From positions 1 to 29,218 of IMG/VR virus record IMGVR_UViG_3300008111_000258: 29,218 nt of DNA. The stretch is one strand, 5' to 3'. Below the pieces are notes generated by a model. It was not told where the DNA came from and did no database searches. It worked only from the letters and a program-made list of their open reading frames with translations. Both the position numbers and the translations under genes were made by a program. This stretch comes from a virus. Positions 1,267-17,378 of this stretch are shown piece after piece (the first letter of the stretch is position 1; every line of letters begins with the position of its first letter).

Positions 1267-1457
1267 TTATAACTATCCCCCGTAGATTGTTCCTGAAATA
1301 CAAAAACCTCACTCACAGAAAGCATTACATTATCAACGATTGATTGAACTATTGCGTCTTCTGTGGGTGTTTCAGTGTGCTTGAATGCTATACGATAACC
1401 CATCAAGGCACCCTCTTCCACTGCTCGTACCATTATAACATAGGTATTTGGTTTCAT
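1263..1457 (-). CDS. Hypothetical small protein (64 aa)
   Basis: The product begins MKPNTYVIMVRAVEEGALMG and ends FVFQEQSTGDSYK. The pattern is an N-terminal strand, a turn, a helix around residues 32-48 and a C-terminal strand, suggesting a small alpha/beta domain. The start and stop are both embedded in ATGA overlaps (1454-1457 and 1263-1266). I do not recognise the family. It is the second gene of the unit that begins at 2020. Confidence 0.75.
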   Translation of the reverse strand: MKPNTYVIMVRAVEEGALMGYRIAFKHTETPTEDAIVQSIVDNVMLSVSEVFVFQEQSTGDSYK

Positions 1458-2020: not shown

Positions 2021-2042
2021 TGCTCTTGACTTGTATGAGCCT

Positions 2043-2071
2043 ACTATAAAACCCCTGACCGCGAAAGTCAA
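2043..2071 (-). promoter_or_regulatory. Sigma70-like promoter for the 2020-to-1 operon
   Basis: On the minus strand TTGACT (2071-2066) and TATAGT (2048-2043) are separated by exactly 17 bases, a near-consensus sigma70 promoter. The predicted start lies about 15-20 bases before the ATG at 2020. The -35 and spacer are inside the terminator hairpin. T4-like phages use host sigma70 for early genes, so this operon is probably early. Confidence 0.7.
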
Positions 2072-2075
2072 GGGT
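2051..2075 (-). terminator. Hairpin terminator upstream of the short-gene operon
   Basis: On the minus strand ACCCTTGAC is followed by a 7-base loop and GTCAGGGGT. This gives a 9-bp stem with one G-U pair, followed directly by TTTTAT. It lies downstream of the 57-residue gene ending at 2099 and can serve as its rho-independent terminator. The same DNA carries the -35 and spacer of the next promoter. Confidence 0.65.
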
Positions 2076-2098
2076 GAGTGGACGGTTTTTAAACTGGT

Positions 2099-2272
2099 CT
2101 ATGTTGTTAAAAGTTTTCTACATATTCGCCTACAACTTTGACTATTTTCATCACATTCAGTTAGACATTCAAAATAATCATTCATCAAATCTTGTTTTTC
2201 TTTAAACTCATCAATAGTTTTTTCAAGATGTTGCCAACCCGAAAGTTGATTAAACGAAATTAAATTGTGCAT
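2099..2272 (-). CDS. Small protein with paired CX3C motifs (57 aa)
   Basis: I choose the ATG at 2272 because GGAGG lies five bases upstream; the in-frame TTG at 2290 would place this ribosome site inside the gene. The 57-residue product has a helical N-terminal half (LEKTIDEFKEKQDLMNDYF) and then CLTEC and CRRIC, two CX3C motifs seven residues apart. This spacing suits either a disulfide-linked helical hairpin or a four-Cys metal site. I cannot name the family. The gene seems to be transcribed alone, with a -10 element upstream and a hairpin terminator downstream. Confidence 0.7.
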   Translation of the reverse strand: MHNLISFNQLSGWQHLEKTIDEFKEKQDLMNDYFECLTECDENSQSCRRICRKLLTT

Positions 2273-2277
2273 AATGT

Positions 2278-2282
2278 CCTCC
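2278..2282 (-). promoter_or_regulatory. Ribosome binding site GGAGG
   Basis: GGAGG on the minus strand, five bases before the ATG at 2272. It decides the start against the in-frame TTG at 2290. It is one of the few strong Shine-Dalgarno sites in the window. Confidence 0.7.
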
Positions 2283-2295
2283 ACGCACAAAGAAT

Positions 2296-2304
2296 ATCAT
2301 AACA
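2296..2304 (-). promoter_or_regulatory. Extended -10 promoter candidate
   Basis: TGTTATGAT on the minus strand is a TGn extended -10 with hexamer TATGAT, about 25 bases before the ATG at 2272. I see no convincing -35, so confidence is limited. Confidence 0.4.
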
Positions 2305-2386
2305 AATAATTTTCAGTTCATTTTTATGACCTTACTATTCTACCACTATCTATGTGATTTGTCAGGAATTCTTAACATAACTATAC

Positions 2387-2860
2387 TTAGAATGTATATT
2401 CTCTCCACTCTTGAATGGAAGTATTGCTCAAGATAAATTGCATTTTGTTGTAAGGAGGTCTTGGTTTTCTTGCAAGTTTCATACCAGTTTGCTCTAACAA
2501 AGTATGACCTTTCTTAGTATTACAAGAACTACAAGCGACTACAAGATTTTCCCAAGTGTCTTGACCGCCACGACATTTTGGAATTACGTGGTCGATTGTA
2601 AGTTTTTTTGTTGAACCACAATATTGGCAGGTATGATTATCTCTTTTATAAATCATTGCCCTTGATGGTTTTTGAGCGACAATTTTGGACAAAGGAACCT
2701 TTACATAATCAAGAAGGCGAATTACCCGATTTGATAGAACTTGTGCTTTTTCTTTAAGTAGTAATACGATTGCTCTTTTCCAACTCGTAAGATTGAGTGG
2801 TTCAAAAGAAGAATTTAATACTAAAACCATTGTATTCGGTTGGATTTTTATTCCAGTCAT
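2387..2860 (-). CDS. HNH endonuclease
   Basis: A 157-residue free-standing HNH nuclease. CQYC (78-81) and CSSC (110-113) form the structural zinc site. The catalytic ββα-metal core is LTIDHVIPKCRGG (about 87-99), with D90-H91, then the Asn of WENL (N105) and K116. The N-terminal region with VLNSSFEPLN is typical of the McrA-like/HNH_5 group found in cyanobacteria and their phages. Family members usually start close to residue 11 here, so the internal ATG at 2830 is an alternative start; neither has a strong ribosome site. It could be a homing-type mobile gene or a DNA-processing nuclease. No intron is visible nearby. Confidence 0.9.
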   Translation of the reverse strand: MTGIKIQPNTMVLVLNSSFEPLNLTSWKRAIVLLLKEKAQVLSNRVIRLLDYVKVPLSKIVAQKPSRAMIYKRDNHTCQYCGSTKKLTIDHVIPKCRGGQDTWENLVVACSSCNTKKGHTLLEQTGMKLARKPRPPYNKMQFILSNTSIQEWREYTF

Positions 2861-2883
2861 ACCTTTTAAGAGGCTTACATTAT

Positions 2884-3201
2884 CTAGTCACGTTGTCTCC
2901 AGTCATCTGGTTTGTCACCTGTAAAGAAATCAATAATATCATCAGCACCATTAAATCCTGTGCGATGATTTGATGGATCTGGATCTCCCAAATCAAGAGC
3001 ATTCATAAAATCGTCTAGACTACCTTCCTGCATATTAGGATTAGCAGCACGGCGTCTTGCTTGCCTTAAAAGTGTTGCTGCAGAACGATTTGCTTTTGAC
3101 AACTTTTCTACCCAAATCATCTCACTTAATTCTACGGTTTCTCCTTTTACAATTTTTTCGCAGATTGCTTCAACGCGAAGTCTGTACTGAGTGGAGAGCA
3201 T
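2884..3201 (-). CDS. Conserved hypothetical protein, late promoter (105 aa)
   Basis: Starts MLSTQYRLRVEAICEKIVKG and ends GDKPDDWRQRD. The first 60 residues look all-helical (MIWVEKLSKANRSAATLLRQ followed by the basic ARRRAANPN). The second half is acidic and likely extended. I recall very similar proteins in cyanophage genomes but know no function. An ATAAATA motif lies 21 bases before the start, which would class it as a late gene. It has no cysteine-rich or membrane element. Possible roles are virion assembly or late regulation, but the sequence does not decide. Confidence 0.8.
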   Translation of the reverse strand: MLSTQYRLRVEAICEKIVKGETVELSEMIWVEKLSKANRSAATLLRQARRRAANPNMQEGSLDDFMNALDLGDPDPSNHRTGFNGADDIIDFFTGDKPDDWRQRD

Positions 3202-3221
3202 ATGTATTATTCAGATAATGA

Positions 3222-3461
3222 TTATTTATTTCTCGATTCTAACTCATCCATCAATTCCTTTGCAAGTTTATATGAGCGTCTCCACATCAAATACTTCACA
3301 ATAGGGTTTGCAGGATTATGAAGAATCCACCACTTTGTCTTTTCGTATTGTACTCTTGCCAGTTGAGTAAGCATATAAAATGCCCTTGCTACTGATTGGT
3401 CTGTAATAATCAGATAAGCAACACAAAAGAAAATAATAAAGTAAATGTATGTTGAATTCAT
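3222..3461 (-). CDS. Membrane-anchored hypothetical protein (79 aa)
   Basis: The first 20 residues (MNSTYIYFIIFFCVAYLIIT) form one clear transmembrane helix. The rest is amphipathic and basic, including WWILHNPANPIVKYLMWRR and a charged C-terminal helix. The likely topology is a single-pass protein with most of its mass on one side of the host membrane. The ATG at 3461 lies two bases after the stop of the preceding 56-residue gene (3463). I recall similar cyanophage proteins without assigned function. Confidence 0.75.
   Translation of the reverse strand: MNSTYIYFIIFFCVAYLIITDQSVARAFYMLTQLARVQYEKTKWWILHNPANPIVKYLMWRRSYKLAKELMDELESRNK
3223..3229 (-). promoter_or_regulatory. T4-type late promoter motif ATAAATA
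   Basis: ATAAATA on the minus strand, 21 bases before the ATG at 3201. It is in the same position as the motifs before the virion genes further right. It lies at the end of the preceding 79-residue gene. Confidence 0.5.
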
Positions 3462-3462
3462 T

Positions 3463-3633
3463 TTATGGATTATGATAAGCTTTCAAATCATAAAGATATT
3501 CGAGAATATTCACTTTCAATGCTTCAAGTTCTTTTTCACATTGTAACTTTTTGGCAATCGTCCTAATTTCTGGGTGATTTGTTTGCAAATCTTCCAACAT
3601 CAAATCAAGTGCCTGAAGTTCTTTTTGTGTCAT
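3463..3633 (-). CDS. Small helical protein (56 aa)
   Basis: A 56-residue frame just below common cut-offs: MTQKELQALDLMLEDLQTNH at the start and DLKAYHNP at the end. It is almost entirely helical and heptad-like (EKELEALKVNILEYLYDLKA), so a short coiled coil is likely. It ends two bases before the next start (3461) and overlaps the end of the preceding gene by 29 bases in another frame. The overlap is long for this genome but still normal for phage. The function is unknown. Confidence 0.65.
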   Translation of the reverse strand: MTQKELQALDLMLEDLQTNHPEIRTIAKKLQCEKELEALKVNILEYLYDLKAYHNP

Positions 3634-3793
3634 TTGGTTTTATGATTAGAGGACAAGTTGGAATTGATTGCTTAATAACTTGAACGATTTCTATTCTTTG
3701 TTGATTTGTTAAACCAACTACTCTACTTAGTCTACCAATAATAGAAAATGCATCATAGCATGATATGGTTGTTGTAAGAAACAGAGCAACCAT
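3605..3793 (-). CDS. Short secreted or lipoprotein-like protein (62 aa)
   Basis: Starts MVALFLTTTISCYDAFSIIG. A short hydrophobic N-terminus ends in ISC, which loosely resembles a lipobox, so export and lipidation are possible; the basic N-region normal for a signal peptide is missing. The remainder (GLTNQQRIEIVQVIKQSIP then CPLIIKPND) reads as a small conserved domain I recall from cyanophages. The last 29 bases overlap the next gene. The function is unknown and no ribosome site is evident. Confidence 0.65.
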   Translation of the reverse strand: MVALFLTTTISCYDAFSIIGRLSRVVGLTNQQRIEIVQVIKQSIPTCPLIIKPNDTKRTSGT

Positions 3794-3815
3794 GGCGGTT
3801 TATTTAATTCTACTA

Positions 3816-4091
3816 CTATTTAACATCAAAGCAAATATTTTCTTCACCATAGTTAATTACTATCTCTTCTCCAGCAGCAATATCCTTAATAGCAAAATGC
3901 TCCATAATCATATTTACATGGTCTCTCTTCCAATCCGCATTTGGTTCATAAGAATGATTGTAAAGACCAATGTCATACCTATAAATCAAAAAATTAAGAT
4001 TATTTAGTTTGAATAGACCAGTGCTCGTTTCCTGTTTTAGGAACCCAAGTACAGTATTGTCGATTAATTGAGACCAAAAAGAACATATCAT
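3816..4091 (-). pseudogene. SET-domain methyltransferase remnant, C-terminal half only
   Basis: The C-terminal part carries the hallmarks of a SET lysine methyltransferase: LYNHSYEPNADW (about 43-54, the NHSxxPN signature) and DIAAGEEIVINYGEE (about 70-84, the ExxxxxYG end of the pseudoknot). A full SET domain of this type is around 110-130 residues and starts with a GxGxF/A motif. That half is missing. The first 30 codons of this frame lie inside another gene (4000-4203) in a different frame and do not resemble SET. A CTAAATA motif occurs at 4001-4007, but no good ATG follows in frame; only a TTG at 3989 would open the recognisable part. I read this as a 5'-truncated remnant. Confidence 0.6.
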
Positions 4092-4203
4092 CAGTCTCTT
4101 GCTCTACTTCCATTGCATGAAGTGATTGCATGATATTCACAAAGCGATTTTTGGCTTTGCTGCTTTTTGGAGTGATGTTGACGAACTTACGTTTGATCTT
4201 CAT
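4000..4203 (-). CDS. Hypothetical basic protein (67 aa)
   Basis: I place the start at the ATG at 4203 (MKIKRKFVNITPKSSKAKNR). The frame stays open to 4260, but that extension covers a promoter and hairpin. The N-terminal 20 residues are strongly basic. The C-terminal part (MFFLVSINRQYCTWVPKTGN then EHWSIQTK) looks like a small beta sheet. I recall related short cyanophage proteins of unknown role. It is the first gene after the terminator-promoter element at 4225-4258, and its end overlaps the nominal SET-remnant frame. Confidence 0.7.
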   Translation of the reverse strand: MKIKRKFVNITPKSSKAKNRFVNIMQSLHAMEVEQETDDMFFLVSINRQYCTWVPKTGNEHWSIQTK

Positions 4204-4224
4204 TGTTTTGTTTGTGTTGAATGT

Positions 4225-4233
4225 ACTATAGCA
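4225..4233 (-). promoter_or_regulatory. Extended -10 promoter after terminator
   Basis: TGCTATAGT on the minus strand is an extended -10 (TGn plus TATAGT), seven bases past the terminator stem and 21 bases before the ATG at 4203. No clear -35 is seen, which is acceptable for an extended -10 promoter. Confidence 0.5.
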
Positions 4234-4240
4234 CAGAAAA

Positions 4241-4258
4241 GGGGTCAGTGACGACCCC
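4241..4258 (-). terminator. Hairpin terminator after the helicase gene
   Basis: On the minus strand GGGGTC, a 6-base loop and GACCCC are followed by TTTTCTG. The stem begins 24 bases after the helicase stop at 4282. The stem is short but all the outer pairs are G-C, and the T run is at the right place for a rho-independent terminator. Confidence 0.6.
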
Positions 4259-4281
4259 AATGTGACAGATTTAGAAGTGGT

Positions 4282-5850
4282 TCATACAAAAAATCTTTCC
4301 AATGTTCCATCAAAAGCCCAGTTTTGAATTTGGTTTTCTATTGATTTGTTACAATGTGGACAAGACAATTCTTTTTGGTTAAAAGATATTGGTTGATCCA
4401 ATTTTGTGACATCGTAAAGATATTGGTATCCAACTAAAACAGAGTTGACATAGAGTTTTTTAAATTCTTCTAGAGAATCTTTCCAAGTTCTTTTAACTTT
4501 TGGATTTTCGGGATACCAAATATCAAATATATTTGCAACTTTAATGGTTTCTACTACTGTTTCTAAATTAACATCATAATCTTTAGAGTAATTTAACAGA
4601 TATTTGCTCATATTATTTTGATATTCAGACCTAATTAATGACCCCGTACCAACGTTAATCCTCACCATTCTTCCAAAAATTTGAATTGGAATTTGAGTGC
4701 GAACTTCTTTTGGATCTCGAATCCTACAAACAACACATGTTGTTAAATTGTGAAGGTTAATTCCAGATCTCCCCCTATTGATTACAATCAAAAACCTCAC
4801 TTGATCCTGCGGATCTTGCAACCTCTTAAACAACTCTGCTGGAGTAGAAACTCTTTCATATCCACCATTCAAATCATGTATACGAATTCCACCACTACTA
4901 TCTTCTACCATAGTGGCAATCATTTTTTCATTTTCTGAGTATCCAATTGAAAGAAGATAATTTGAAATAACAGATTTGACTTCATCAATGGGACAACCCC
5001 AAATTCCTCTCTGGTCTCCAGCAATAAAGAGACCACTCAATTTTGGTACAATATTGTGATCATTAATTGCCAGTTCCTTAAGTTTTGCTTCTCTATCAAA
5101 CAAAATATCAACACTTTCTTCTACTGAGGATTGGATACAATATTTACCGTTATTTTTAACATAAGGATATTCTTTTGTGTTATTGATCCATGCTTGTGAA
5201 GAAAGAATTACTTCCAATTTGGCAAGATCACTACAAACCTGAAACATCGGAGAAAGATACTTATCTCCTTTATGGTGTTGAGTAGGTGTTGCAGTAAATC
5301 CCAAGATTCTAGGATTTTCTTCCCTCCACCTCATAATCCTACGAATAGTCTCTGCACTATATTCGGAATGATAACCAAAATTGATGATATATGCTTCTGG
5401 ACCTTCATCCCCACAACCAGTAAATTGATGAGCTTCTTCAATACAAAGAACAGATTTCTTTGCATATTTGACAAGTCTATCAAAATTTACAGTATAGTAA
5501 GTATGAGTACAAGAAATACAATATACAACATCATCATTATCTTCAGTTACGTCAAGAACAGATGATACTGGATTATCCAAATATCTAAATTTATATTCAC
5601 TATTGCTCAATTCTTTTACATTTTCAAATGTACCATCATTAGCAACTTCATTAGTTGGGGAAAGTCTAATAATGTACTTTAAATCTGGAAATGCCTCTTT
5701 AAGAATTACTGGCATTTCTTTATCTTGGAAAAATGATTTTCCACATCCTGTTTGGAGTTGAAAGATTTTAATCTTATTGTTTGTAAAATCTTCGCTAACT
5801 ACTGTTTTTTTAAAATCATCAGCAAACTGCTGATATGCTGTTTTTTTCAT
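4282..5850 (-). CDS. SF2 DNA/RNA helicase (DEAH-like)
   Basis: A 522-residue superfamily 2 helicase or translocase. Motifs in order: Walker A QTGCGKS (33-39), motif II EEAH (138-141, a DEAH variant with Glu first), motif III FTATP (185-189), motif V NRGRSGINLHN (358-368) and motif VI QIFGRMVR (390-397). The layout resembles the ResIII/type III restriction helicase group. A single CPHC (497-500) near the C-terminus could be half of a zinc knuckle. No nuclease, methylase or specificity domain is attached and no such partner is next to it. AGGA five bases before the ATG at 5850 supports the start. It appears distinct from T4 UvsW. It could act in replication, recombination or counter-defence; the sequence does not decide. 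Confidence 0.85.
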   Translation of the reverse strand: MKKTAYQQFADDFKKTVVSEDFTNNKIKIFQLQTGCGKSFFQDKEMPVILKEAFPDLKYIIRLSPTNEVANDGTFENVKELSNSEYKFRYLDNPVSSVLDVTEDNDDVVYCISCTHTYYTVNFDRLVKYAKKSVLCIEEAHQFTGCGDEGPEAYIINFGYHSEYSAETIRRIMRWREENPRILGFTATPTQHHKGDKYLSPMFQVCSDLAKLEVILSSQAWINNTKEYPYVKNNGKYCIQSSVEESVDILFDREAKLKELAINDHNIVPKLSGLFIAGDQRGIWGCPIDEVKSVISNYLLSIGYSENEKMIATMVEDSSGGIRIHDLNGGYERVSTPAELFKRLQDPQDQVRFLIVINRGRSGINLHNLTTCVVCRIRDPKEVRTQIPIQIFGRMVRINVGTGSLIRSEYQNNMSKYLLNYSKDYDVNLETVVETIKVANIFDIWYPENPKVKRTWKDSLEEFKKLYVNSVLVGYQYLYDVTKLDQPISFNQKELSCPHCNKSIENQIQNWAFDGTLERFFV

Positions 5851-5900
5851 AAATTCCTAATTGCTTTTACGCTGATTAATTTTTAAGAGAAGTATCTCAC

Positions 5901-6347
5901 CTATTGTTTTACCAATAGGCACTTTAAATAATACCTTTGATGTGGCCTCTGCCCCCATCCATACCATTTACCTTTCTTTCCGTTATGATAAGGTGGAATC
6001 TTCCCTACAGAGTAATATTGTTCTGCAGTTAAATCATAAACATTCTCACCATTCTGCAACCACCAATGATAATCATCACGGTAATCTAATCCAGCCATTG
6101 GAACTAACAAGTCAGTATCCATTAGATAAAATAGTGCTTGAGTAGAATGATAGCAATGACCGTACATTGGATTGCTTTGGTTCTCTTCACGATACTTAGG
6201 TGTAAGAAGGTCTGGTGTTAGATTTCTGCGAATCAATCCCATAACCAAACTCATATTTGCTTCTGAGTATCTGTAAGGTTCAAAAGTCAATCTCCTTGTC
6301 TGAAAGATTTGCTTATCTTTATACCTATGTCTCTCTACTACTTTCAT
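5901..6347 (-). CDS. YunG-like protein (148 aa)
   Basis: The core reads GHCYHST (C65), HWWLQNG (H94) and VYDLTAEQY (D105), followed by GKWYGWGQRPHQR near the end. From memory this matches the YunG family of small bacterial and phage proteins, whose biochemical role is unknown to me. The spacing of Cys, His and Asp resembles a papain/NlpC-like catalytic triad, which is an inference. There is no signal peptide. The ATG at 6347 is preceded by about 60 bases without other features. A 7-bp hairpin covers its last codons (5900-5919) but lacks a T tract, so it is not a terminator. Confidence 0.7.
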   Translation of the reverse strand: MKVVERHRYKDKQIFQTRRLTFEPYRYSEANMSLVMGLIRRNLTPDLLTPKYREENQSNPMYGHCYHSTQALFYLMDTDLLVPMAGLDYRDDYHWWLQNGENVYDLTAEQYYSVGKIPPYHNGKKGKWYGWGQRPHQRYYLKCLLVKQ

Positions 6348-6406
6348 AATGTCTTTATGTTCTTTAAGTATCTAGAGCCATCTTTATCAACCCCGACAAA
6401 GGTATT

Positions 6407-6844
6407 CTAGAGGGATTGGTTGGTGTCTGTCAAGTAGTCTAGATATTCCCCATAAAGAACTTCTTCCATTTGAAATGCTTGTACCTCCCATGGTTGCTCT
6501 GAATAGTCCGTATCACTGAAGTCTATGCCCCTCCAGTACCTCTTTCCTCTCTTATCCTTAAGAGCACCCATAACGTGCTGATAAACGTGCCAGAGTTCGT
6601 GTAGAAGGACAGTAGTGTAGTGTTCTGGAGTCATCTGATTATGCATTTCAATCTCAAATGCACGAGGTCTCCAATCACAATCAGTGACTCCTACCCAACC
6701 ATAAACTTCATCACGCAGCATCCCACGATGATTGACAGTAATCTCAAGTTTGTGTTTGGGAAGATGTTTAGAAATGAACCAGTTTACAATGCGTTCACAA
6801 CGACGCTTGCTATAGTTGTACCCACTGGTGTATGATGTAAGCAT
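6407..6844 (-). CDS. Putative zinc metallopeptidase (SprT-like, HExxH)
   Basis: A 145-residue protein with HELWH (82-86) in LLHELWHVYQHV, the zinc-binding HExxH helix. Downstream EQPWEVQAFQMEE supplies E120, a plausible third ligand. The N-terminal part contains strands (KLEITVNHRG, GWVGVTDCDW) placed as in SprT/wss-type minimal metallopeptidases. It has no export signal, so it probably acts in the host cytoplasm. Its ATG overlaps the stop of a 34-residue membrane protein as TAATG, so the two are coupled and probably share the promoter at 6971. The substrate is unknown: host-protein turnover or phage-protein processing are both possible. Confidence 0.8.
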   Translation of the reverse strand: MLTSYTSGYNYSKRRCERIVNWFISKHLPKHKLEITVNHRGMLRDEVYGWVGVTDCDWRPRAFEIEMHNQMTPEHYTTVLLHELWHVYQHVMGALKDKRGKRYWRGIDFSDTDYSEQPWEVQAFQMEEVLYGEYLDYLTDTNQSL

Positions 6845-7024: not shown

Positions 7025-8866
7025 TCAGTCTGTGTCGAAGAAAAACATTTGCCACAATCTTGCGTTTTCTTTTATAGTTCCAAAGTATTGTGATGCGGAA
7101 TGAATAGCACTAGCATCAAAAATTACAAGACGGTTATAGACATTCCCTAGAACATCAACTGGTTCAAATGGAGTTCCATCTAAATGTGCGTCTCCAGGAA
7201 CATCTTTCCAAGAAACATCCCACCCCTCATCAAAATAAGTTCTTGCCCTGGTTTTTTTATGTGCGTATAGAGTAGTTCCACATTGATAAGGGGCATCTGG
7301 AGTAAGATACAACATTCCACCCCATTTTTGACTATCACAATGATATACTAATGGTTCTCCAGCCCATGCGATTTGGAATCTACCATTCATTCCATAATCT
7401 TCCCATTTTGTGATGGTTTTTCCCATAATTTTCTCAAATCTTTCTTTGAGACCTGGGAATAAGAATTGTTGTTCTGTGCGCCTACCAATAAATCCCCTGC
7501 CAAATCCACCTTCAACATAATCTTGATTTAGTGCAAACTCTCTAACTACATTTGGATTTTCGTAAAAGTTATCTACAATCCAAGAAGTCGGTTTGGAGTT
7601 TACGCTTAATTTAAAAAAATTTGGTTCTTCTCCTGATGAACTTAAAATATATTCTTTCGCGTGGTGTATCCCTTCAATAATTGATTTCATCTTATTAATA
7701 ATATTTTCATCAACTAAATCTGGATGTACCCACCAATCTTCAAAATTGGACTTTCCATCGGGTGATAAATCATTCGCCACCAATGTATAACCTTTACTTT
7801 TTAGAAATTCTCTTGATTTTTCTCGGAAAGATCTTGTGACATCCACATAATAATCATGTTCATAAGTAATCACTGCAAATTTGTATTTGTCAAAAGGAAC
7901 TCTCAACATACACTCATAAGTATTTTTTGCAGGTTCAATATCTAACTGAAGATAATCAATAGTATTTCCTTCAAAGTTTTCTTCTAGTAGTTTTTCATAA
8001 TTAATTGTCAGTGCATTGTCATGAAGCAGTTTTGCACTTCTATTATTTCTGTAGTTGTTTATAAACTTTTCATTATACTCAATAGAAACACCAGTCCAAC
8101 CAAAAGTCTTTTCAAGTAGCGCAGTATTATTACCCTTAAATGGGTCGGCACCACCAATCTCAAGGAATGTTCCATTCTTCTTTCCATTGAGCATTGAAAG
8201 AATAAACATATCTTGATAAACTTGAGAATAGTTTCTCTCAATGAAGGATGAGTTATCAAACTTAAATTTTAGTTTTGAGTGCTCTTCTTTTGTATAAGTA
8301 TGAAATGCTTGAGATTCTGGACCTGAACCAAGACGAGTTATATTATCTTCTACTGATCTTTTGTGAGTTTCATCCATTTCATTCCAATGATTATCAACTA
8401 AAGAATGAAAAAGTTTTCTAGATTCCATTCCTCTTCCCCACCACCAAGCAGAAACTGCTTTCTGGAAGATGAGTAGATATTTTCCTTTGAACTCTGGAAG
8501 ATCTAGTATATCGTCTATGGTTTGTTGAAGACCTAGATTTGCATATGTGTAAGAATTTTGCCATTCTTGTTTTCTTTCGTAAAGCAATGAAAGAAAATAA
8601 TATGCTTCTGGTCTTTGTGGAAGAAGATTGAGAGCATTCTCTAGAAGTACTTTTTCTGTACCATCTCTTGAACCCTGTGATTTATAACAAAATGATGCTC
8701 TTATCAACGCTTGATATGCAATATTTTCATCTTCTGCTCTTTCTGCTGACCTCAAATAATAAGTATGAGCAGGAGCGGTATGACCTTCGTTTTCATACCA
8801 TTTTGCAAGATTATAGTTCTTTTCTGCGTTTTCAGTATCTAAACTAAATTCAAGTAGTTCATTCAT
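7025..8866 (-). CDS. TPR + FkbM methyltransferase + 2OG-Fe(II) oxygenase fusion
   Basis: A 613-residue three-domain protein. Residues 1-190 are TPR-like helical repeats (YNLAKWYENEGH, PEAYYFLSLLYERKQEW) of the type often attached to phage and bacterial glycosyltransferases. Residues 205-385 are an FkbM-type SAM methyltransferase: FLEIGGADP (234-242) as motif I and YLQLDIEPA (305-313) as the acidic motif. Residues 420-613 resemble a 2OG-Fe(II) oxygenase: HCD (509-511) as HxD, VIFDASAIHSAS with distal H589, and R603 for 2-oxoglutarate. FkbM enzymes O-methylate sugars or small molecules, and the oxygenase would hydroxylate. The start overlaps the upstream GH130-like gene by 8 bases (ATGAATGA), so the two are cotranslated. 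A terminator follows. The substrate, glycan or protein, is unknown. Confidence 0.85.
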   Translation of the reverse strand: MNELLEFSLDTENAEKNYNLAKWYENEGHTAPAHTYYLRSAERAEDENIAYQALIRASFCYKSQGSRDGTEKVLLENALNLLPQRPEAYYFLSLLYERKQEWQNSYTYANLGLQQTIDDILDLPEFKGKYLLIFQKAVSAWWWGRGMESRKLFHSLVDNHWNEMDETHKRSVEDNITRLGSGPESQAFHTYTKEEHSKLKFKFDNSSFIERNYSQVYQDMFILSMLNGKKNGTFLEIGGADPFKGNNTALLEKTFGWTGVSIEYNEKFINNYRNNRSAKLLHDNALTINYEKLLEENFEGNTIDYLQLDIEPAKNTYECMLRVPFDKYKFAVITYEHDYYVDVTRSFREKSREFLKSKGYTLVANDLSPDGKSNFEDWWVHPDLVDENIINKMKSIIEGIHHAKEYILSSSGEEPNFFKLSVNSKPTSWIVDNFYENPNVVREFALNQDYVEGGFGRGFIGRRTEQQFLFPGLKERFEKIMGKTITKWEDYGMNGRFQIAWAGEPLVYHCDSQKWGGMLYLTPDAPYQCGTTLYAHKKTRARTYFDEGWDVSWKDVPGDAHLDGTPFEPVDVLGNVYNRLVIFDASAIHSASQYFGTIKENARLWQMFFFDTD

Positions 8867-9833
8867 TGATAAAATCCTCCACCAAAGATTGCGAAACTTT
8901 TAAAATATATGCTGCGTTATCTTGTGCTCCAAAAGTAATCAGTAAATCATCTCTATATTCTGCTAAACCACAACAGAATTCTATTTTCATATTGAGAAAA
9001 GAAAATAGTTTTGAAAGCTTTTGATTTTTAAAGTCTTTATCCCAGTAAACAAATCGGTGACGATATGTTGCGTTTTTTCTTCCTTGCTCACTATTATATA
9101 ATTCAGTCTCATGAATTAAAGTTAGATATCCATCTTTCCACTTAATAACTTGAGAACCACCTCTCATGTCATTCATTCTTTCAGTTTTTGAATTAGTTTC
9201 AAACACTTCAGTTTCGCCACCATTAGGATCAAATTTCATTAAACATGTTGGATTAGTCCATTTTAACAAATGGAATGGATTGCCCTCAATAGGAGTGCAA
9301 TTTTTCATGCAATATTCATTATCTGGCGGCGGTCCTGGAATACGATATCTAGATACTTCTTTGACTTCCGAATCTGTAAATTCAAGTTCTGAAAGTTCCA
9401 TCCTCCCAGTTCCTTTTGTATCTAAATCTCTTCTTACTCCGCAAATGTAAATATGATTTCCCCAGTTGATCAATCTACAGTCTTCTAAACCAACAAATTC
9501 CCATTGTGGTTGATATGTATCAAATTCAGAGGTGTCTACTTTAGTAGAATAAACCACCTCTAAATTTTCATCAAGTTCCGCAATATAATTTGTGGTCCGT
9601 AAATGCATATCATTCTCTGGATGAATGTATGACAATGGACCCCAAAGATGTTCAAATCTATTCAATTCTGCATGATAAAGCGTATAGTTGACATTTCTAA
9701 TATTTACTATTATCTTGTCATTTACTACAAGGACTGATGGATTTGTGAGAGATGGTCCTGATAAATCTTGTGGTTTTATAAGTAATGGTTTTACTTTCCC
9801 ACCATTTTCAAGGGCAAGTTTTACAAAGTTCAT
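8859..9833 (-). CDS. GH130-like beta-propeller glycoside-active protein
   Basis: A 324-residue protein with the signature order of the GH43/GH130 five-bladed propeller superfamily: NPSVLVVND (31-39), GLEDCRLI (115-122, compare the GxEDPR motif of GH130), RGGSQVI (224-230), LIHET (239-243), KIEFCCGLAEY (283-293) and FGAQDN (301-306). GH130 members phosphorolyse or hydrolyse mannosides. The Cys replacing the usual Pro in EDPR is unusual, so activity should not be assumed, and a lectin-like or transferase role is also possible. An ATAAATA late motif lies 31 bases upstream. It overlaps the FkbM/oxygenase gene, which suggests joint action on a sugar. Confidence 0.75.
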   Translation of the reverse strand: MNFVKLALENGGKVKPLLIKPQDLSGPSLTNPSVLVVNDKIIVNIRNVNYTLYHAELNRFEHLWGPLSYIHPENDMHLRTTNYIAELDENLEVVYSTKVDTSEFDTYQPQWEFVGLEDCRLINWGNHIYICGVRRDLDTKGTGRMELSELEFTDSEVKEVSRYRIPGPPPDNEYCMKNCTPIEGNPFHLLKWTNPTCLMKFDPNGGETEVFETNSKTERMNDMRGGSQVIKWKDGYLTLIHETELYNSEQGRKNATYRHRFVYWDKDFKNQKLSKLFSFLNMKIEFCCGLAEYRDDLLITFGAQDNAAYILKVSQSLVEDFINE

Positions 9834-9881: not shown

Positions 9882-10007
9882 TTATGCTTGAGATTCTGTC
9901 CAGGTAATTCTAGAAGAAACTGTAAGTGGTGAAGTTGCGTTAATTTCTGAGGTATCAACTGGTTTAATTGCAATCGTAAGAAGGTCGGGCCCATTTGGAT
10001 ATTTAAA
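9882..10007 (-). pseudogene. Partial duplicate of the preceding C-terminal tip (41 codons)
   Basis: Immediately after the TAA at 10008-10010, and in the same frame, 41 sense codons read FKYPNGPDLLTIAIK through SSRITWTESQA and then TAA. This repeats the end of the upstream frame, YPDGPDTLTVFA through AGRVTWTESQG. There is no start codon or ribosome site, so it can be translated only by readthrough. I read it as the scar of an unequal crossover or a tip-cassette exchange. An ancestral two-copy protein interrupted by a nonsense change is the alternative. Confidence 0.6.
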
Positions 10008-10562
10008 TTAACCCTGGGATTCGGTCCAGGTTACTCGTCCAGCAATTGATCTCTGTTGCCCAGAAATATTTGTGGCGAACACAGTTAATGTGTCGGGTCC
10101 ATCAGGATATACACCAGGACCACCAAGAATACTATTACCAAGTTCACGAATTATATCAATTGGATAGGTAGTATTTGCAAATCTACCTTGTCCGTCTTCA
10201 GCGAAGAATGCCGTAACAACGTCTCCCCCAGTAAATGTACCACCGCTAATACTATGGTCAACAAATTGTGCAATAGATCCGTTGGGAGCTCTTCTCCAGT
10301 TAGCAGTATTATTTAATACGCTAGATTCTGCATTAATTCTAACTTCTATACTAAAATTACCACTAGCAGAAATACCAATACTATTAAGAGTTAAAGCAGA
10401 TCTATTGATTAAGTTTCTAATTCCATAAAATCCAGGAATACCAAAATCAACGCTAGGTGCCAATCGAAGAGTTATAAGAGCAACTCTTGACCCATTAGGA
10501 ACAAGCTGATATCCTAGTCCTCCAACAGATGTTGATGCGGTAAATAGATATGATTTATCATC
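10008..10562 (-). pseudogene. C-terminal fragment of a broken virion/fibre gene
   Basis: A frame of about 184 codons, DDKSYLFTASTSVGG through VTWTESQG, that is open only back to 10583 and has no ATG. A TTG at 10463 (LAPSVDF) is the best internal start but lies after clearly protein-like sequence (GLGYQLVPNGSRVALITLRL). It overlaps the end of the 784-residue frame and needs a +1 shift to join it. From memory, related cyanophage virion proteins carry this type of C-terminal domain on the same chain as the preceding part. The likeliest reading is a 3' part separated by a frame-changing deletion. Confidence 0.65.
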
Positions 10563-12912
10563 TACCAGGCAAGTTACCCGTTCTCATATACGCTTCGGTA
10601 TTAACATTATTTTGCTTTACTTCATGCACGTAATGAATATATCCATCAGTTGTTCTAATTCCCCAACGGACTTTACCAGCACCATACCAAGAATAATCAA
10701 TAAATACCATCTGCATTCTATTTGGATCCAGAGTATATCTACTTGGTCCTGTACCATCAAGTTTATCCAAATTAAATGAATCTTGCCTATATCGATCATC
10801 TACAGTTTTAACAATTTTAACATCAGTTATAGTTGATGCTCTGTAATCAGGAGAAACTGTTAAAGTACTATCATCAGTTATTTTTGTAACTAAGTAATTT
10901 CCACCTTTAATAATAATATTGTCTTCTTCTTTAAGTTGAGTTAAAAACTTTGTATTTGTTCCTATAACTGTAGAAGAATTTTGGTTAATTGCAATTCTTC
11001 CTGCTAATTGATTTGTACTAGATCTTTTTACAGCGTACAAATATTTACCATCATGCTCAAAAAATATTCCATTTTGATCATCAAATAATCCAGATCTTAC
11101 TGTGGCATCATTCCACTCGATTACTTCAACTCTAGGAGTTCCTCCAGGATTAGTATCAGATGGCAATCCACCATTACCAGCACTCACATTTACATTAATT
11201 ACGAATGTAGTTCTGTTTACGATAGAGGCAACTCTATATTCTCCATTATAGGGATTATTTCCTGCCGTAACGGTAAACCCACTTAATCTAACTTTTGCAC
11301 CTTGTAGATAAGTAGAAGCAGAAGTAAATCCATGCTCTTGATCGGTTGTAATAGTTAAAGCATAAACCTCATTAGTTCCTGCTTGATAAACATTAGTTAA
11401 AACACTCCAAGTAGATGCATCATAAACTGGTCTGAAAAGAATACCTGTAGAGAACATGATACCTTTACCAGACTGGTATCTAAAATACTTACGTGTTTGT
11501 CTAATGATTTGACAATTTGGACTATTTGAGGATGGGTTAATTTGAACTCCACCATCCAAATATCTATGAGCAGCAATACCTTCATTTCTAACATAAACAA
11601 AAGTAGATCCAGTATTTAATGTTGTGGTACTAGCATAATTCGTTAATTCTCCAGTTTGATACTCAACTTGTGTATCACTTATAACTCTACTTACTTCACG
11701 AGCTCCAATCCACGTGGCGGCGCTAGATACTGTAGAATCTACAATATAAATTTTTGATCCAATATGTAAAGAATGATTAGAACTAAACGTTATTCTTGCT
11801 CTAGTAGTTCCAGAAACAGATTGAATATTAGTTAATGGTAAAGAAGAATTAGTAAAAAATCCTCCTGTATACAACGCGGTATAATCAGTCTTTTGATCAC
11901 CGACATATGCCGTTGGTGATCGATGAGAAAATAAAAATTGAGTTGGACTTATTACACCCGTAATCAAAAATGCTCCATCAAGATATAATGCATCTTTAGT
12001 TTCTTTTAAAACAATAGGACTACCAATTGCAAAAGGAGTAGCTGGGGCGGATGCAACTGTGACCTGCAAAGCATTAGATGATCCAGTTTGACCCCAAGCA
12101 AGTCTAAACGCTTGACCAGTTGTATATGGAGGACTTGGATTTGTATTAGGAGTCCAAGTTGCTAAGTATGCTGTAGCAGGTCCATTACCATCCTGCAATC
12201 CAACAAAACCATTTTGTTGTTGGTTAGCAACATAATGAAGTTCAATATTATTTTGCCCTTCATTAAATCTCAATTCAACAATAATACTACTAGCGATTCC
12301 ACCTAAAGAAGAACCTTCCCATCTAACAATCCAAGTTCTGTTTGGTGCCGTGCCAGTCGTAATATATCCTAACCATTGAATTGACTGGTCTGCAGCATTC
12401 CATTTTAAACCTGGCAATCCACTTGGGGCATTTTCAAGAGACAGACCTGAATAAGCACTAGATCCGGCACCAAACGTAAGATATCCATTACTTCCAAAAT
12501 AAACAGTAGAGTAATTAATTCCTAAAAAATTAATAATAAATGGAGATGGTAAAGCATAATTTGAATCATCAGAACTACCACTAAAGAACTCGGTCATTCC
12601 AGCTCTACCATTTTGTGCAAAAGTAATGCTAGTTGCCGAACCACTATACCCAGTTCCACCAGTTGCAGGAACGATACTTATAATATCCGAAGCTGTATAT
12701 GCTGGTTCGTTTGCTCTCTGGAAGATACTTGCAATGTTATTTTGTAATTGTACAGATTCCCATTTCGTTGCCTGTAATGAATATTCAAAGTCAGTATCCA
12801 TCAATGCTTGAGGGTTTGATACCCTCATTTTTTCTACAGGATCTTGATAGGTAAGATTGGGAGAAATTTTCTGTTCATTATAATATTCATCAATATAAAT
12901 CTGCAACTCCAC
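10558..12912 (-). CDS. Large virion structural/fibre protein, central part (784 aa)
   Basis: A 784-residue frame beginning at a GTG (12912) immediately after an in-frame TAG, with no ribosome site. Its first residues (ELQIYIDEYYNEQ, then PVEKMRVSNPQALMDTDFEY) match what I remember as an internal region of cyanophage structural proteins. Residues about 115-275 resemble a nidogen/NIDO-like beta domain (INFLGINYSTVYFGSNGYLT). Later parts are repeated beta domains with RVSGFTV-type and VITGVISPTQFLF-type segments. It ends AYMRTGNLPGR, where relatives, as I recall, continue. The N-terminal piece (12890-13069) and C-terminal piece (10008-10562) lie in other frames. It may still be translated by coupling to the N-terminal piece. 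Confidence 0.75.
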   Translation of the reverse strand: MELQIYIDEYYNEQKISPNLTYQDPVEKMRVSNPQALMDTDFEYSLQATKWESVQLQNNIASIFQRANEPAYTASDIISIVPATGGTGYSGSATSITFAQNGRAGMTEFFSGSSDDSNYALPSPFIINFLGINYSTVYFGSNGYLTFGAGSSAYSGLSLENAPSGLPGLKWNAADQSIQWLGYITTGTAPNRTWIVRWEGSSLGGIASSIIVELRFNEGQNNIELHYVANQQQNGFVGLQDGNGPATAYLATWTPNTNPSPPYTTGQAFRLAWGQTGSSNALQVTVASAPATPFAIGSPIVLKETKDALYLDGAFLITGVISPTQFLFSHRSPTAYVGDQKTDYTALYTGGFFTNSSLPLTNIQSVSGTTRARITFSSNHSLHIGSKIYIVDSTVSSAATWIGAREVSRVISDTQVEYQTGELTNYASTTTLNTGSTFVYVRNEGIAAHRYLDGGVQINPSSNSPNCQIIRQTRKYFRYQSGKGIMFSTGILFRPVYDASTWSVLTNVYQAGTNEVYALTITTDQEHGFTSASTYLQGAKVRLSGFTVTAGNNPYNGEYRVASIVNRTTFVINVNVSAGNGGLPSDTNPGGTPRVEVIEWNDATVRSGLFDDQNGIFFEHDGKYLYAVKRSSTNQLAGRIAINQNSSTVIGTNTKFLTQLKEEDNIIIKGGNYLVTKITDDSTLTVSPDYRASTITDVKIVKTVDDRYRQDSFNLDKLDGTGPSRYTLDPNRMQMVFIDYSWYGAGKVRWGIRTTDGYIHYVHEVKQNNVNTEAYMRTGNLPGR

Positions 12913-13069
12913 CTAGACCAGAAGACGCAAAGTTATAAATGATCGTATTGGTTGTTGTATTTGTAACTAATAAAAATCTAGACAATTCAACATAACCAGG
13001 AATCTGAATATTTCCAACTTCAGAAGCACCTGGATTAAATGTATAATTATAAACAAGTTTCTTTGCCAT
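12890..13069 (-). CDS. N-terminal fragment of a broken virion protein (59 aa)
   Basis: A 59-residue frame with a proper ATG and late promoter: MAKKLVYNYTFNPGASEVGN through TIIYNFASSGLGG, then an out-of-frame tail VADLY. MAKKLVYNYTF is, from memory, the start of a large cyanophage virion protein in which sequence like that of the next frame follows on the same chain. The frame closes 23 bases inside the 784-residue frame, and a +1 shift between 12890 and 12912 would connect them. This is therefore probably the true 5' end of that gene, cut off by a small deletion or insertion. Confidence 0.7.
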   Translation of the reverse strand: MAKKLVYNYTFNPGASEVGNIQIPGYVELSRFLLVTNTTTNTIIYNFASSGLGGVADLY

Positions 13070-13103: not shown

Positions 13104-13547
13104 TTAACCAAGAGCAATTGAAAATGCTATTACTTGAGATTGAGAAACTCCACCAGAAGCAGTGATGGTAACATTTCCTGTAGATTGGTCAATAGAAATT
13201 CCAGAACCAGCAGTTATTGATGTAACTCCAGCACCAGTTAAAGTCTGTCCACCTATTGTGACGGAAGTTGCATTAATTGTTCCAGAATTTCCATTAATCG
13301 TAACACCAGAACCAACAGTAATTCTATTACCAGACCCATCTAACGTGATTGAACTACTACCAACCGTCAGTATTCCTGATATTCTTGCATCACCATTAAC
13401 ATGCAAAGAAGTTCCTGATGTACCTACAGAACCAACTTCTAACTTAAATCTAGGTAGTGTGGTTCCTATACCAACTCTGCTGTGAGTTATGTCTACAGTT
13501 ATATGTTCATTAGAAACTAAACTTGAAGTCTGTCTTGACTTTCCCAT
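13104..13547 (-). CDS. Short fibre-like virion protein (147 aa)
   Basis: Starts MGKSRQTSSLVSNEHITVDI, then SRVGIGTTLPRFKLEV, a phrase typical of trimeric phage fibre proteins. It continues with Gly/Ser/Thr/Val-rich repeats (GSSSITLDGSGNRITVGSGV, TSVTIGGQTLTGAGVTSIT) suggesting a beta-helix or trimeric beta shaft, and ends QSQVIAFSIALG. There is no enzymatic motif. A CTAAATA late motif within the end of the upstream gene lies 20 bases before the start. It probably assembles with the neighbouring fibres as a short fibre or a tip adaptor. It may be a shortened relative, since comparable cyanophage proteins can be much longer. Confidence 0.75.
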   Translation of the reverse strand: MGKSRQTSSLVSNEHITVDITHSRVGIGTTLPRFKLEVGSVGTSGTSLHVNGDARISGILTVGSSSITLDGSGNRITVGSGVTINGNSGTINATSVTIGGQTLTGAGVTSITAGSGISIDQSTGNVTITASGGVSQSQVIAFSIALG

Positions 13548-13562
13548 TATTGAGAGTAATTT

Positions 13563-16500
13563 TTAACTATTTAGATTTTTTTGAATGATGTTAAGATTCT
13601 CTTTGACAATTTCAATTTCCTTTTGTTGTTCTTTGATTGCTTCAATTAATACACCTACAATATTTCCGTAAGAAACTGACTTAAGACCATTTTCATTTTC
13701 AACAACGACTTCTGGAATTACTTTTTCAATATCTTGTGCAATCACACCAATTGATGGTTGATTGTGATTATCCTTCCACTTATACCTTACACCTTCCATT
13801 TGTGATACCAAATCAAGTGCGTTTTCAATTAATTGAATATCAGTTTTTTGTGTTCTATCAGATAGTGAAGTAAATACGGTTGCTGATAATGTTCCTGTGG
13901 AAGGATTGAAGTTTAATTTAGTACTTGAAGCATAAGTTGCTGTTGGTGTTCCAGTAGAAACATCAGAAAATAGTGGATATCTTGTGCTATTTGTAGTAGT
14001 ATCATTAGTGATAGATGAACTACCAGAACTTCCAGTAGTGCCTTGAGCACCTGTAGTTCCTTGTGCTCCAGTTCCAGTGGTGCCTTGAGCACCTGTAGTT
14101 CCTTGTGCTCCAGTTCCAGTAGTTCCTTGTGTTCCAGTAGTTCCTTGAGCACCTGTAGTTCCTTGAGCACCTGTAGTTCCTTGAGCACCTGTAGTTCCTT
14201 GTGCTCCAGTGGTGCCTTGCGTTCCGGTGGTTCCCTGTACTCCTTGATTACCAGTTCTTGAGAATTGAACTGCTACAGATGCACCATTTGAAGGTAAAGA
14301 ACCTGATATATGCGATACTGGAATTTTATAGTATCCAGACGCTGCAATGACTGAGCCCGTAATACTCCAGATATTAATAAGAGTGCTTCCTGAAGTTGCT
14401 CCTTGTACAATTAAGTAACCTTTTTGGGATGAAGATGTTGAATCATCCCAAGTATCATACCAAGTTGTCTGAACATTTGAGTTAGTGTCATTATTATCAA
14501 TGTATATAAAACTGACAGACCCAATTGTTCCACTATCATACCTTAAAATTCCATTTCCGGGATCCGCATCAGTAGTTGTTGAACTAAATGTATATGGAGC
14601 ACCACCGGTTGCATCACTTCCTGTTGTTCCTTGAGCACCTGATCCTGCAGCACCTTGGACTCCCTGAGTACCTTGAGCACCTAATGTTCCACCATTGTAT
14701 GAAATAATATCAATAACATCACCTAATACTGCACCTACTGCCAATACCACAGAAGTTCCATTTGATGCAGTGTATTCTGATTCTGAAAGTCTGACACCAT
14801 TTAAAAATACGTCAATAAATCCAACCGTATAAGTTACTGAAAAATTAGTCTGTCCAGATGTTGCGGTATATGACGCAATTGACTTGTCATAATTAACACC
14901 TGAAGTTCCTTGTGTTCCGTTGGATCCTTGAGTTCCAGTAGTACCTTGAGTTCCAGTAGTACCTTGAGAACCAGTTGTTCCCTGAGTTCCTGTAGCACCT
15001 TGAGTTCCTGTAGCACCTTGAGTTCCTGTAGCACCTTGAGAACCAGTTGTTCCTTGAGAACCAGTTGTTCCTTGTGTTCCGTTGGATCCTTGAGTTCCTG
15101 TAGCACCTTGAGAACCAGTTGTTCCTTGAGTTCCTTCTGTACCCTGTGATCCAGTGGTTCCTTGAGTTCCTTCTGTACCCTGTGATCCAGTTGTTCCTTG
15201 AACACCTTGAATACCCGCATCAAATGGAGTTGTCCAAGAAACTCCAGCACCAGTTGAAATAAGAACTGATCCAGCTACTCCCACCTTTTCATAAAAATCT
15301 TTAAGACCAGAACGAAGTCTTAAGTTTCCGCCAGTTATATCTAATTTGTCTGTTGGAGATTGAGTTCCAATACCAACGTTGAAAAAATTATTTCCACTAA
15401 TCCAAGCAGTATTTCCAGAACCAATTAATAATTGAGTATTTCCAGTTTCACTTGGTAATGAAAGTGTAGATGAAGAACCACCTAGAATGACAACATTTGA
15501 ACTCCCTGATGTAATTTCATTTCCAGCATAATTTCCTAGAAGTAAATTTCCATTTCCTGATGTTATTGCAGCACCCGCTTGAACTCCAATGCCTATATTA
15601 AAATCACCATTTGTAGTAGTAGTACCATAAAGTGATTGATAACCAACAGCAATATTATAAGAACTGTCGGTTCCATCTTGATATTTTGCTTGATAACCTA
15701 TTGCGATGTTATAATCACCATCATCATGTGCATACATTGCCTCCTGTCCTAAGGAAACATTAGATATACCTGCAATAATACCAAAACCTGCACCAAAACC
15801 AATTAAGGTATTTCTTGATCCAGATGTTAGCGCCTCACCCGCTTGATATCCAATTGCAACATTATAATCACCACCGGTAGTTGAATAAAGAGACTGATAT
15901 CCAATAGCAACATTACCTAATGCACTAGAATTAAGAGTTCCTCCATAAAATGCTTGATAACCAATCGCAACATTATAATCGCAAGATGAAAGATCATAAC
16001 CGGCTTGATATCCAATTAAAACATTATACTCGCAAGTACTAGTTGCAAGTTCTGCTGCTTGATATCCTGCAACAAAGTTATAATCGAATGAAGTAGGCCA
16101 GTGAGTATTAAATCTTGCCGCAGTTACGATACCTGTAAAGTTTGAATTGCCTGTTACTGACAGTATACTAAAAGTAGAAATCCCAGAAATATTCAGTTGC
16201 GGAGAACTAATAGTACTATCAGTAACTTGCATACCTCCAGCAGCAAGTCTTACTCCATTTGGTAACTGTGTCGAACCAATACCAATTGCATAGTTACTCA
16301 ACCAAGCATCAGTATAACCAGCACCAATATCACCACCCCTGAACCACATAATTTTCTTATATGTGTCTGGATTAGTTTCTCCACCAATTGCAAGACTTAC
16401 AAGTGGAGTCCCTTCAGTTGATGCAATCGCAATACCACCATGGCTTGCAGTTGCATCAGTTGGTGAGAATGAAGTACCAATACCAAGAACAATATCAGCA

Positions 16501-17378
16501 TCAATTACTGTAAGTTGTTGAGTATTAAGTTGTGCTGATGTGCCACCAATAGTAATTGCACCATCAACATTTAAATTGCCGTTGATGTCAGTGTTATTTA
16601 AAACTGTCAGTGTATGAGTAACTAACTCGGTTCCATTGAATGTGAGATTAGAAGAACCAGTTGGATTATTAGAACCATCTTTATAAACAACTTGATTTGC
16701 AGAACCTGCTACTGGTCCTGTAATACCTTGAATGCCCTGAGATCCTTCAGTACCTTGTGCTCCAGTAGTTCCTTGTGTACCATCAGTACCTTGAGTTCCT
16801 GTTGCCCCCTGAGTTCCTGTGGTTCCTTGAGTTCCTGTGGTTCCTTGAGTGCCTTGGGTTCCCTGAGTACCTTGGGTGCCATCAGTACCTTGTGTTCCGT
16901 CAGTACCTTGAATTCCCTGAGTACCTTGAGTTCCTTGGATTCCCTGAGTACCTTGTGTTCCGTCAGTACCTTGAATTCCCTGAGTACCTTGAATTCCCTG
17001 AGTACCTTGTGTTCCTTCAGTACCTTGAATTCCCTGAGTACCTTGTGTTCCTTCAGTACCTTGAATTCCCTGAGTACCTTGTGTTCCGTCAGTACCTTGA
17101 ATTCCCTGAGTACCTTGAGTTCCTTGGATTCCCTGAGTACCTTGTGTTCCTTCAGTACCTTGGATTCCCTGAGTACCTTGTGTTCCTTGAGTTCCTTGTA
17201 GTCCTTGAACTCCAATTTGAACTACTGTAGTTCCTATTCCTACCCCTAAAGTATCTTGGCGAATAAACAACTTTCCATCATAATGGTTAATAGCTATTTC
17301 TCCAAGACCTAACTGTTCGACTGTGGGTGTTTTTCCCTGAACGGTAGACCTTTTAACTCTTATGATGGGATCAGCCAT
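13563..17378 (-). CDS. Collagen-like tail fibre with C-terminal S74 chaperone (1271 aa)
   Basis: Residues 1-50 (MADPIIRVKRSTVQGKTPTV, GLGEIAINHYDGKLFI) resemble the N-terminal anchor of tropism-determinant/fibre proteins. Residues about 56-221 are uninterrupted Gly-X-Y triplets, mostly GTQ, GIQ, GTD and GTE. A paralogous beta module follows (IAIASTEGTPLVS). Next come many NVAIGYQAG-type repeats like those of trimeric adhesin heads, then two more Gly-X-Y blocks. The last 99 residues are an S74 intramolecular chaperone: SDRTQKTDIQ (Ser at about 1173), GVRYKWK, IGVIAQDIE, SVSYGNIVGVLIEAIKEQ and a C-terminal coiled coil. S74 domains trimerise the fibre and usually cleave themselves off just before the Ser-Asp. 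It is most likely a host-recognition fibre. A late promoter and a palindromic leader precede it. Confidence 0.9.
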   Translation of the reverse strand: MADPIIRVKRSTVQGKTPTVEQLGLGEIAINHYDGKLFIRQDTLGVGIGTTVVQIGVQGLQGTQGTQGTQGIQGTEGTQGTQGIQGTQGTQGIQGTDGTQGTQGIQGTEGTQGTQGIQGTEGTQGTQGIQGTQGIQGTDGTQGTQGIQGTQGTQGIQGTDGTQGTDGTQGTQGTQGTQGTTGTQGTTGTQGATGTQGTDGTQGTTGAQGTEGSQGIQGITGPVAGSANQVVYKDGSNNPTGSSNLTFNGTELVTHTLTVLNNTDINGNLNVDGAITIGGTSAQLNTQQLTVIDADIVLGIGTSFSPTDATASHGGIAIASTEGTPLVSLAIGGETNPDTYKKIMWFRGGDIGAGYTDAWLSNYAIGIGSTQLPNGVRLAAGGMQVTDSTISSPQLNISGISTFSILSVTGNSNFTGIVTAARFNTHWPTSFDYNFVAGYQAAELATSTCEYNVLIGYQAGYDLSSCDYNVAIGYQAFYGGTLNSSALGNVAIGYQSLYSTTGGDYNVAIGYQAGEALTSGSRNTLIGFGAGFGIIAGISNVSLGQEAMYAHDDGDYNIAIGYQAKYQDGTDSSYNIAVGYQSLYGTTTTNGDFNIGIGVQAGAAITSGNGNLLLGNYAGNEITSGSSNVVILGGSSSTLSLPSETGNTQLLIGSGNTAWISGNNFFNVGIGTQSPTDKLDITGGNLRLRSGLKDFYEKVGVAGSVLISTGAGVSWTTPFDAGIQGVQGTTGSQGTEGTQGTTGSQGTEGTQGTTGSQGATGTQGSNGTQGTTGSQGTTGSQGATGTQGATGTQGATGTQGTTGSQGTTGTQGTTGTQGSNGTQGTSGVNYDKSIASYTATSGQTNFSVTYTVGFIDVFLNGVRLSESEYTASNGTSVVLAVGAVLGDVIDIISYNGGTLGAQGTQGVQGAAGSGAQGTTGSDATGGAPYTFSSTTTDADPGNGILRYDSGTIGSVSFIYIDNNDTNSNVQTTWYDTWDDSTSSSQKGYLIVQGATSGSTLINIWSITGSVIAASGYYKIPVSHISGSLPSNGASVAVQFSRTGNQGVQGTTGTQGTTGAQGTTGAQGTTGAQGTTGAQGTTGTQGTTGTGAQGTTGAQGTTGTGAQGTTGAQGTTGSSGSSSITNDTTTNSTRYPLFSDVSTGTPTATYASSTKLNFNPSTGTLSATVFTSLSDRTQKTDIQLIENALDLVSQMEGVRYKWKDNHNQPSIGVIAQDIEKVIPEVVVENENGLKSVSYGNIVGVLIEAIKEQQKEIEIVKENLNIIQKNLNS
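13568..13574 (-). promoter_or_regulatory. Late promoter motif CTAAATA
   Basis: CTAAATA on the minus strand, 20 bases before the ATG at 13547. It lies inside the last codons of the collagen-like fibre gene. Confidence 0.55.
14030..14252 (-). repeat. Collagen-like Gly-X-Y repeat block 3
   Basis: GTTGAQ and GTTGTQ units, interrupted twice by a GTGAQ that breaks the triplet phase. It lies just before the region leading to the S74 chaperone. Copies of the 18-base unit coding for GTTGAQ are nearly identical. Confidence 0.85.
14897..15217 (-). repeat. Collagen-like Gly-X-Y repeat block 2
   Basis: About 105 codons rich in GTQGTTGSQ and GATGTQ units, in the middle of the fibre gene. It lies between the NVAIGYQAG-type head repeats and a beta domain. 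Several 18- and 27-base units are near-identical direct repeats. Confidence 0.85.
16716..17213 (-). repeat. Collagen-like Gly-X-Y repeat block 1
   Basis: About 165 codons of G-X-Y with a 9-base period and a higher-order pattern in which blocks such as GTQGTQGIQGTEGTQGTQGIQ (20-residue scale) recur. The Y position is nearly always Gln in the first two thirds and Thr/Gln later. The DNA is repetitive enough for slippage and recombination and opens long spurious frames on the other strand. Confidence 0.9.

Follow-up and report, generated by a model that had tools for sequence, protein, structure and literature searches.

Among isolated cyanophages, the closest described counterparts of the locus examined here are S-PM2d173 of S-PM2 and QPB08154.1 of S-H9-1, which belong to the same family as all three of its pieces and likewise stand after other large structural genes. 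The family, phrog_5838, is a cyanophage virion structural protein, with the "virion" name coming from annotation. PMC9910659 places S-PM2d175 in an uninterrupted run of genes that may encode adhesins; S-PM2d173, the orthologue of the window gene, lies two genes from it. The window, i.e. the whole 29,218-nucleotide stretch of virus record IMGVR_UViG_3300008111_000258 that was analysed, does not contain the continuous ORF of this family (about 850–1925 aa).

Three open frames lie end to end on the minus strand of the window (13069–12890, 12912–10558, and 10583–10008), with a +1 shift at each junction. Frame 1, the gene start, runs from ATG 13069 to TGA 12890 (59 aa) and begins MAKKLVYNYTF; upstream of 13069 is a promoter-like CATAAATA, which we take to resemble the T4 late promoter TATAAATA. 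Frame 2 (10558–12912), the body of the virion protein, is open after a TAG, has GTG 12912 as its first codon, and extends over 784 codons to TGA 10558. Frame 3 (10008–10583), apparently the C-terminal part of a donor-type allele, comprises 191 open codons up to its own stop, TAA 10008, with 183 codons homologous to relatives; it has no ATG and its first listed start is the TTG at 10463. The preliminary description had given the three frames, their coordinates and shifts, the start and end of frame 1, the 784 codons from a GTG directly after the TAG, and a third frame lacking ATG, all of which are found in the sequence. Its lower limit of 9882 is a real stop, but one that belongs to an additional in-frame 41-codon remnant of a second allele (9882–10007) that it did not describe. 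The upstream neighbour (13104–13547, minus strand) is intact with 147 aa and a weak tail-fibre PHROG match, and the downstream neighbour (8859–9833, minus strand) is intact with 324 aa and 95% protein identity to the related contig L166, serving as a marker of the resident backbone. Elsewhere in the window, one end of a 490-aa ORF (25502–26974) resembles a glycosyltransferase family, whereas its opposite end matches DNA methyltransferase families, and an HNH endonuclease gene (2387–2860) lies near the edge of the structural block.

The three translations match consecutive stretches of phrog_5838, covering profile positions 1–50, 85–647, and 914–1105 of 1106 with E-values of 1.5e-7, 3.3e-132, and 7.9e-35 for frames 1, 2, and 3, respectively; the profile positions that they skip are those absent from the window DNA. 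Because the three pieces match consecutive parts of one PHROG, the alignment places the pattern far beyond chance, and the earlier impression that all three frames look like protein holds for each. In Pfam, frames 2 and 3 and the intact form from the related contig L002 gave no match. The predicted fold of the intact L002 protein has a pLDDT of 76 and found no convincing match among solved structures (best E 9.8e-4, probability 0.08), while in a profile search an F2-pyocin side fibre (63 positions, 1.8e-6) and the phi92 endosialidase (3e-4) were matched weakly, which is consistent with fibre-like parts and nothing beyond. Based on the gene neighbours, which include a collagen-like fibre ending in S74 (13563–17378), the S-PM2d175 block described in PMC9910659, the PHROG annotation, and the weak pyocin side fibre match, the protein probably belongs to the cyanophage adhesin/tail-fibre block. 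A near-identity search of isolates found no DNA-level match to the window gene; isolate protein relatives are all <60% identical (among the matches listed, 37–44% for frame 2 and 32–37% for frame 3), and the same protein search gave no relatives for frame 1.

The nearest alleles were found in five contigs (L002, L003, L004/L022, L005/L021, and L006/L023), several of which represent about the same strain, and independent alleles are fewer than contigs. L002, with 89% DNA identity to the window across frame 2 and 92% across frame 3, has one ORF of 1155 aa, and L022 one of 1154 aa, each from an ATG; L003 is open with its 5′ end cut, and L005 and L006 start within the gene and are open onward. At the first junction (J1, 12908–12909, minus strand), all three contigs covering it (L002, L003, and L022) carry 80 additional bp where the window runs straight from 12909 to 12908, with 0 bases of microhomology as measured on L003. 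At the second (J2, 10559–10560, minus strand), all five carry 326 extra bp at 10560|10559, with 1 base of microhomology as measured on L002 and L022. Each loss leaves a remainder of 2 on division by 3, hence the two +1 shifts. The preliminary description had spoken of relatives with one continuous protein and extra sequence at both junctions. L002, L022, S-PM2, and S-H9-1 do have a single protein, the nearest contigs do carry the extra sequence, and the alignment to homologues that it proposed gave the losses their sizes; of its "two small deletions", the two deletions stand, but against close relatives they are not small. Sequencing indels in an otherwise intact gene would account for two frameshifts within one gene, but differences of 80 and 326 bp are neither single bases nor homopolymers. 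The alignment to relatives refutes this explanation, to which we give next to no credence, and the remaining long ORFs of the window (1271, 1050, 942, 613, and 522 aa) are all open, in line with the earlier remarks that other long genes are intact and general sequencing error unlikely.

The J1 loss corresponds to L002 residues 54–81, where the prediction places two strands of an N-terminal beta domain, and the J2 loss to about 109 residues (L002 864–972) that include seven strands of the prediction as well as the conserved SHWG..DG motif (SHWG..DGRFD region). From the predicted structure, these losses should wreck the protein fold. A working split or recoded protein, made by ribosomes shifting +1 at each junction or by the assembly of three polypeptides, would agree with the retention of protein-like sequence under purifying selection in all three frames. 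It is nevertheless very improbable, as the joints remove those strands and that motif, GTG 12912 lies within sequence that relatives read in another frame and appears to be an accidental start, and no ribosome site or slippery stretch was seen by eye. A conserved shift site, as for a programmed frameshift, was not found either, the relatives being open across both sites. No relative has the boundaries of the window's frames; the preliminary description had held that homologues divided into separate proteins at the same boundaries would speak against its account.

Across 85 family loci (window included) de-duplicated at >90% shared 31-mers with near copies removed, 65 have one complete ORF, which also argues against a split protein, 17 have one ORF cut by the contig end, and 3 have more than one ORF, namely the window, L025, and L057. 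The 65 include L019, though it is shortened by 208 bp; the isolates Sf-CH11 and Sf-CH1a form a near-identical pair, and the isolate is counted apart. In L057, the family is present as tandem copies (3–575 and 662–4300), the first cut by the contig end. In L025, a 123-kb contig, the family gene lies in two overlapping frames of 296 and 760 aa (3479–6552), and its nearest intact relatives are about 50% identical. In a control for split genes covering 139 de-duplicated loci (from 186), 45 adjacent pairs were candidates, most with only one or two supports. More than one ORF was found in 4/66 loci for the family of the 613-aa neighbour (e.g. L107 and L112) and in 0/69 for the 324-aa neighbour; broken large genes are therefore not unique to this family, and no enrichment is claimed. 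The homologues of the 613-aa gene (window 7025–8866) in L107 (10850–12783) and L112 (7935–10654) are two adjacent ORFs, and the 324-aa protein (8859–9833), which has no PHROG or Pfam match, is a complete single ORF in all 69 de-duplicated loci.

A feature absent from the preliminary description is that, judged from the alignments, the gene is mosaic and combines two alleles. L166, reached via the gene at 8859–9833 and part of a 153-kb contig, has the same backbone, with 89.6% identity between window 10002–6461 and L166 6832–10374, and 77.7% between window 14033–13007 and L166 346–1390. The corresponding position in L166 is occupied by a single intact open frame of 1881 aa, which from its ATG starts MAKKLVYNYTFNPGAS, as does the window, and whose final 39 residues are those in frame past the window's TAA 10008. 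Frame 1 is similar to the resident L166-type allele over its first ∼21 codons and to the donor L003 allele over the remainder, with window 13011–12909 identical to L003 at 103/103 positions; the gene body is L002/L003-like, unlike the L166 allele. On this comparison, the gene in this contig has a start of resident type, then a donor body that carries its own stop, and finally a 3′ relic of the resident, the last 39–40 codons of the L166-type allele (9882–10007, minus strand), in frame past the donor stop and meeting the donor at a third joint (J3, about 10005/10002, minus strand). The relic retains 39/39 residues of L166 and 95.7% identity over 117 bases; its 5 differences are all silent (dN 0, dS 0.19), and the join is therefore younger than nearly all of that divergence. 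Compared with L002, the frames have no extra stops (dN 0.07/dS 0.31 and dN 0.06/dS 0.18). Signs of old decay, i.e. further stops, indels, or relaxed selection, were not found in the gene (dN/dS about 0.2–0.3, relic dN 0), and a pseudogene formed by old decay is ruled against.

The three abrupt joints lie within 3 kb and no other decay is seen; all of them would therefore have to be younger than almost every substitution. The locus represents one large cyanophage virion (adhesin-block) protein gene in a broken mosaic form, with its ends from the resident allele of the backbone and its body from another allele circulating in related phages; the loss of 80 and 326 bp from the donor body puts the rest out of frame twice. 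An origin of these breaks in the computational assembly of a strain mixture is at least as likely as one in the virus itself, and with slightly better than even confidence we favour a mis-joined assembly of co-occurring strains as their cause. A short-read assembler most probably stitched such strains across a hypervariable gene, leaving the three joints, with gaps closed without their sequence and alleles switched during assembly; scaffold gap collapse is an assumption here. L003 contradicts J1, since it carries the same strain's sequence in intact form, with 103 identical bases to the left and 88 to the right of J1 and the 80 bp present. All five nearest contigs end inside this gene or ≤65 nt from it. 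Exact-word scans of viral_contigs returned 0 contigs for the J2 word and 0 for the J3 word, and found a 45-mer beside J1 only in L003, which is intact there, although the scans could omit records near the window, which weakens the zero counts; the word at the 5′ switch gave nothing in the genome_contigs scan, and a strain-specific word of the gene body gave nothing in its scan. L003 is itself a strain mosaic at 1–271, its 5′ end identical with the window except for the 80 bp and the rest with L022. The switch occurs inside a 35-base word common to both strains, and after the first 236 nt L003 has 1 difference from L022 in 3500 positions compared. Another contig, L019 (IMGVR_UViG_3300008107_001333), has a clean 208-bp loss in the same gene relative to siblings 99.4% identical, without overlapping bases as judged by eye.

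Against an assembly origin, joints with 0 and 1 base of microhomology are not accounted for by simple false overlaps in a de Bruijn graph, and chimeras usually make up <5% of large contigs in simulated viromes according to PMC5610896, which sets a low prior for mis-joins in general. The frameshift in the isolate Sf-CH11 points the same way, in that broken copies may occur in real phages. The same observations bear on a real, very recent null allele, in which a phage acquired a donor body in its resident gene by recombination, the 3′ end of the resident persisted as a relic, and the function of the protein was lost through two out-of-frame deletions, tolerated or selected in host adaptation. 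This is the main rival and a serious possibility, yet one that we hold to be less than probable. It would fit a backbone and relic matching L166 and a body matching L002/L003, joints without overlap, the low chimera rate in simulated viromes, the split copy in L025, and the 2-bp frameshift of Sf-CH11 in the same gene; PMC9910659 reports that virion genes mutate early in coevolution, and PMC6224464 mentions allelic exchange between cyanophages. It would also demand that a single gene underwent three independent non-homologous events, each more recent than almost any substitution. No second contig has any joint tested, and a sequencing error could lie behind the gap in Sf-CH11. The literature searched on phage frameshifts and assembly errors yielded nothing on this gene, and absence from print is not claimed. 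The preliminary description had offered decay, collapse of strain variants in assembly, or a split protein; this was the right set, and the evidence leans towards assembly collapse over decay and strongly against the split protein.

A broader idea, which we regard as unlikely, is that this adhesin-block gene habitually undergoes allele swapping with loss, whereby a resident phage takes up a foreign body via non-homologous joints, its own start and 3′ tip are kept, and broken OFF forms (the window, L019, L025, and isolate Sf-CH11) are part of host-range change. In the window the relic even lies in frame past the donor stop, and stop readthrough would give a second tip. A real locus would record allele replacement at one moment, with a relic that can be dated, and a cyanophage losing one of its large virion proteins. 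An assembly effect alone would be a warning that contigs of uncultivated viruses can present spurious frameshifts and alleles in hypervariable genes for host recognition.

In comparison with known systems, the isolates S-PM2 and S-H9-1 have a single continuous CDS, in contrast to the three frames of the window and its missing 80 and 326 bp. L019 resembles the window in its clean loss within the same gene, the right end of which lies at the PNGPD codons where the window relic also starts, but it has one loss and no second allele. Sf-CH11 (L185, PV340848.1) differs from Sf-CH1a (L186, PV340849.1) solely by 2 bp in 9.7 kb, at L185 4547. As in the window, a gene of the same family is affected, annotated there as two virion structural proteins owing to the frameshift; in contrast, Sf-CH11 has one 2-bp deletion elsewhere in the gene, and neither an allele mosaic nor a relic was seen in it.
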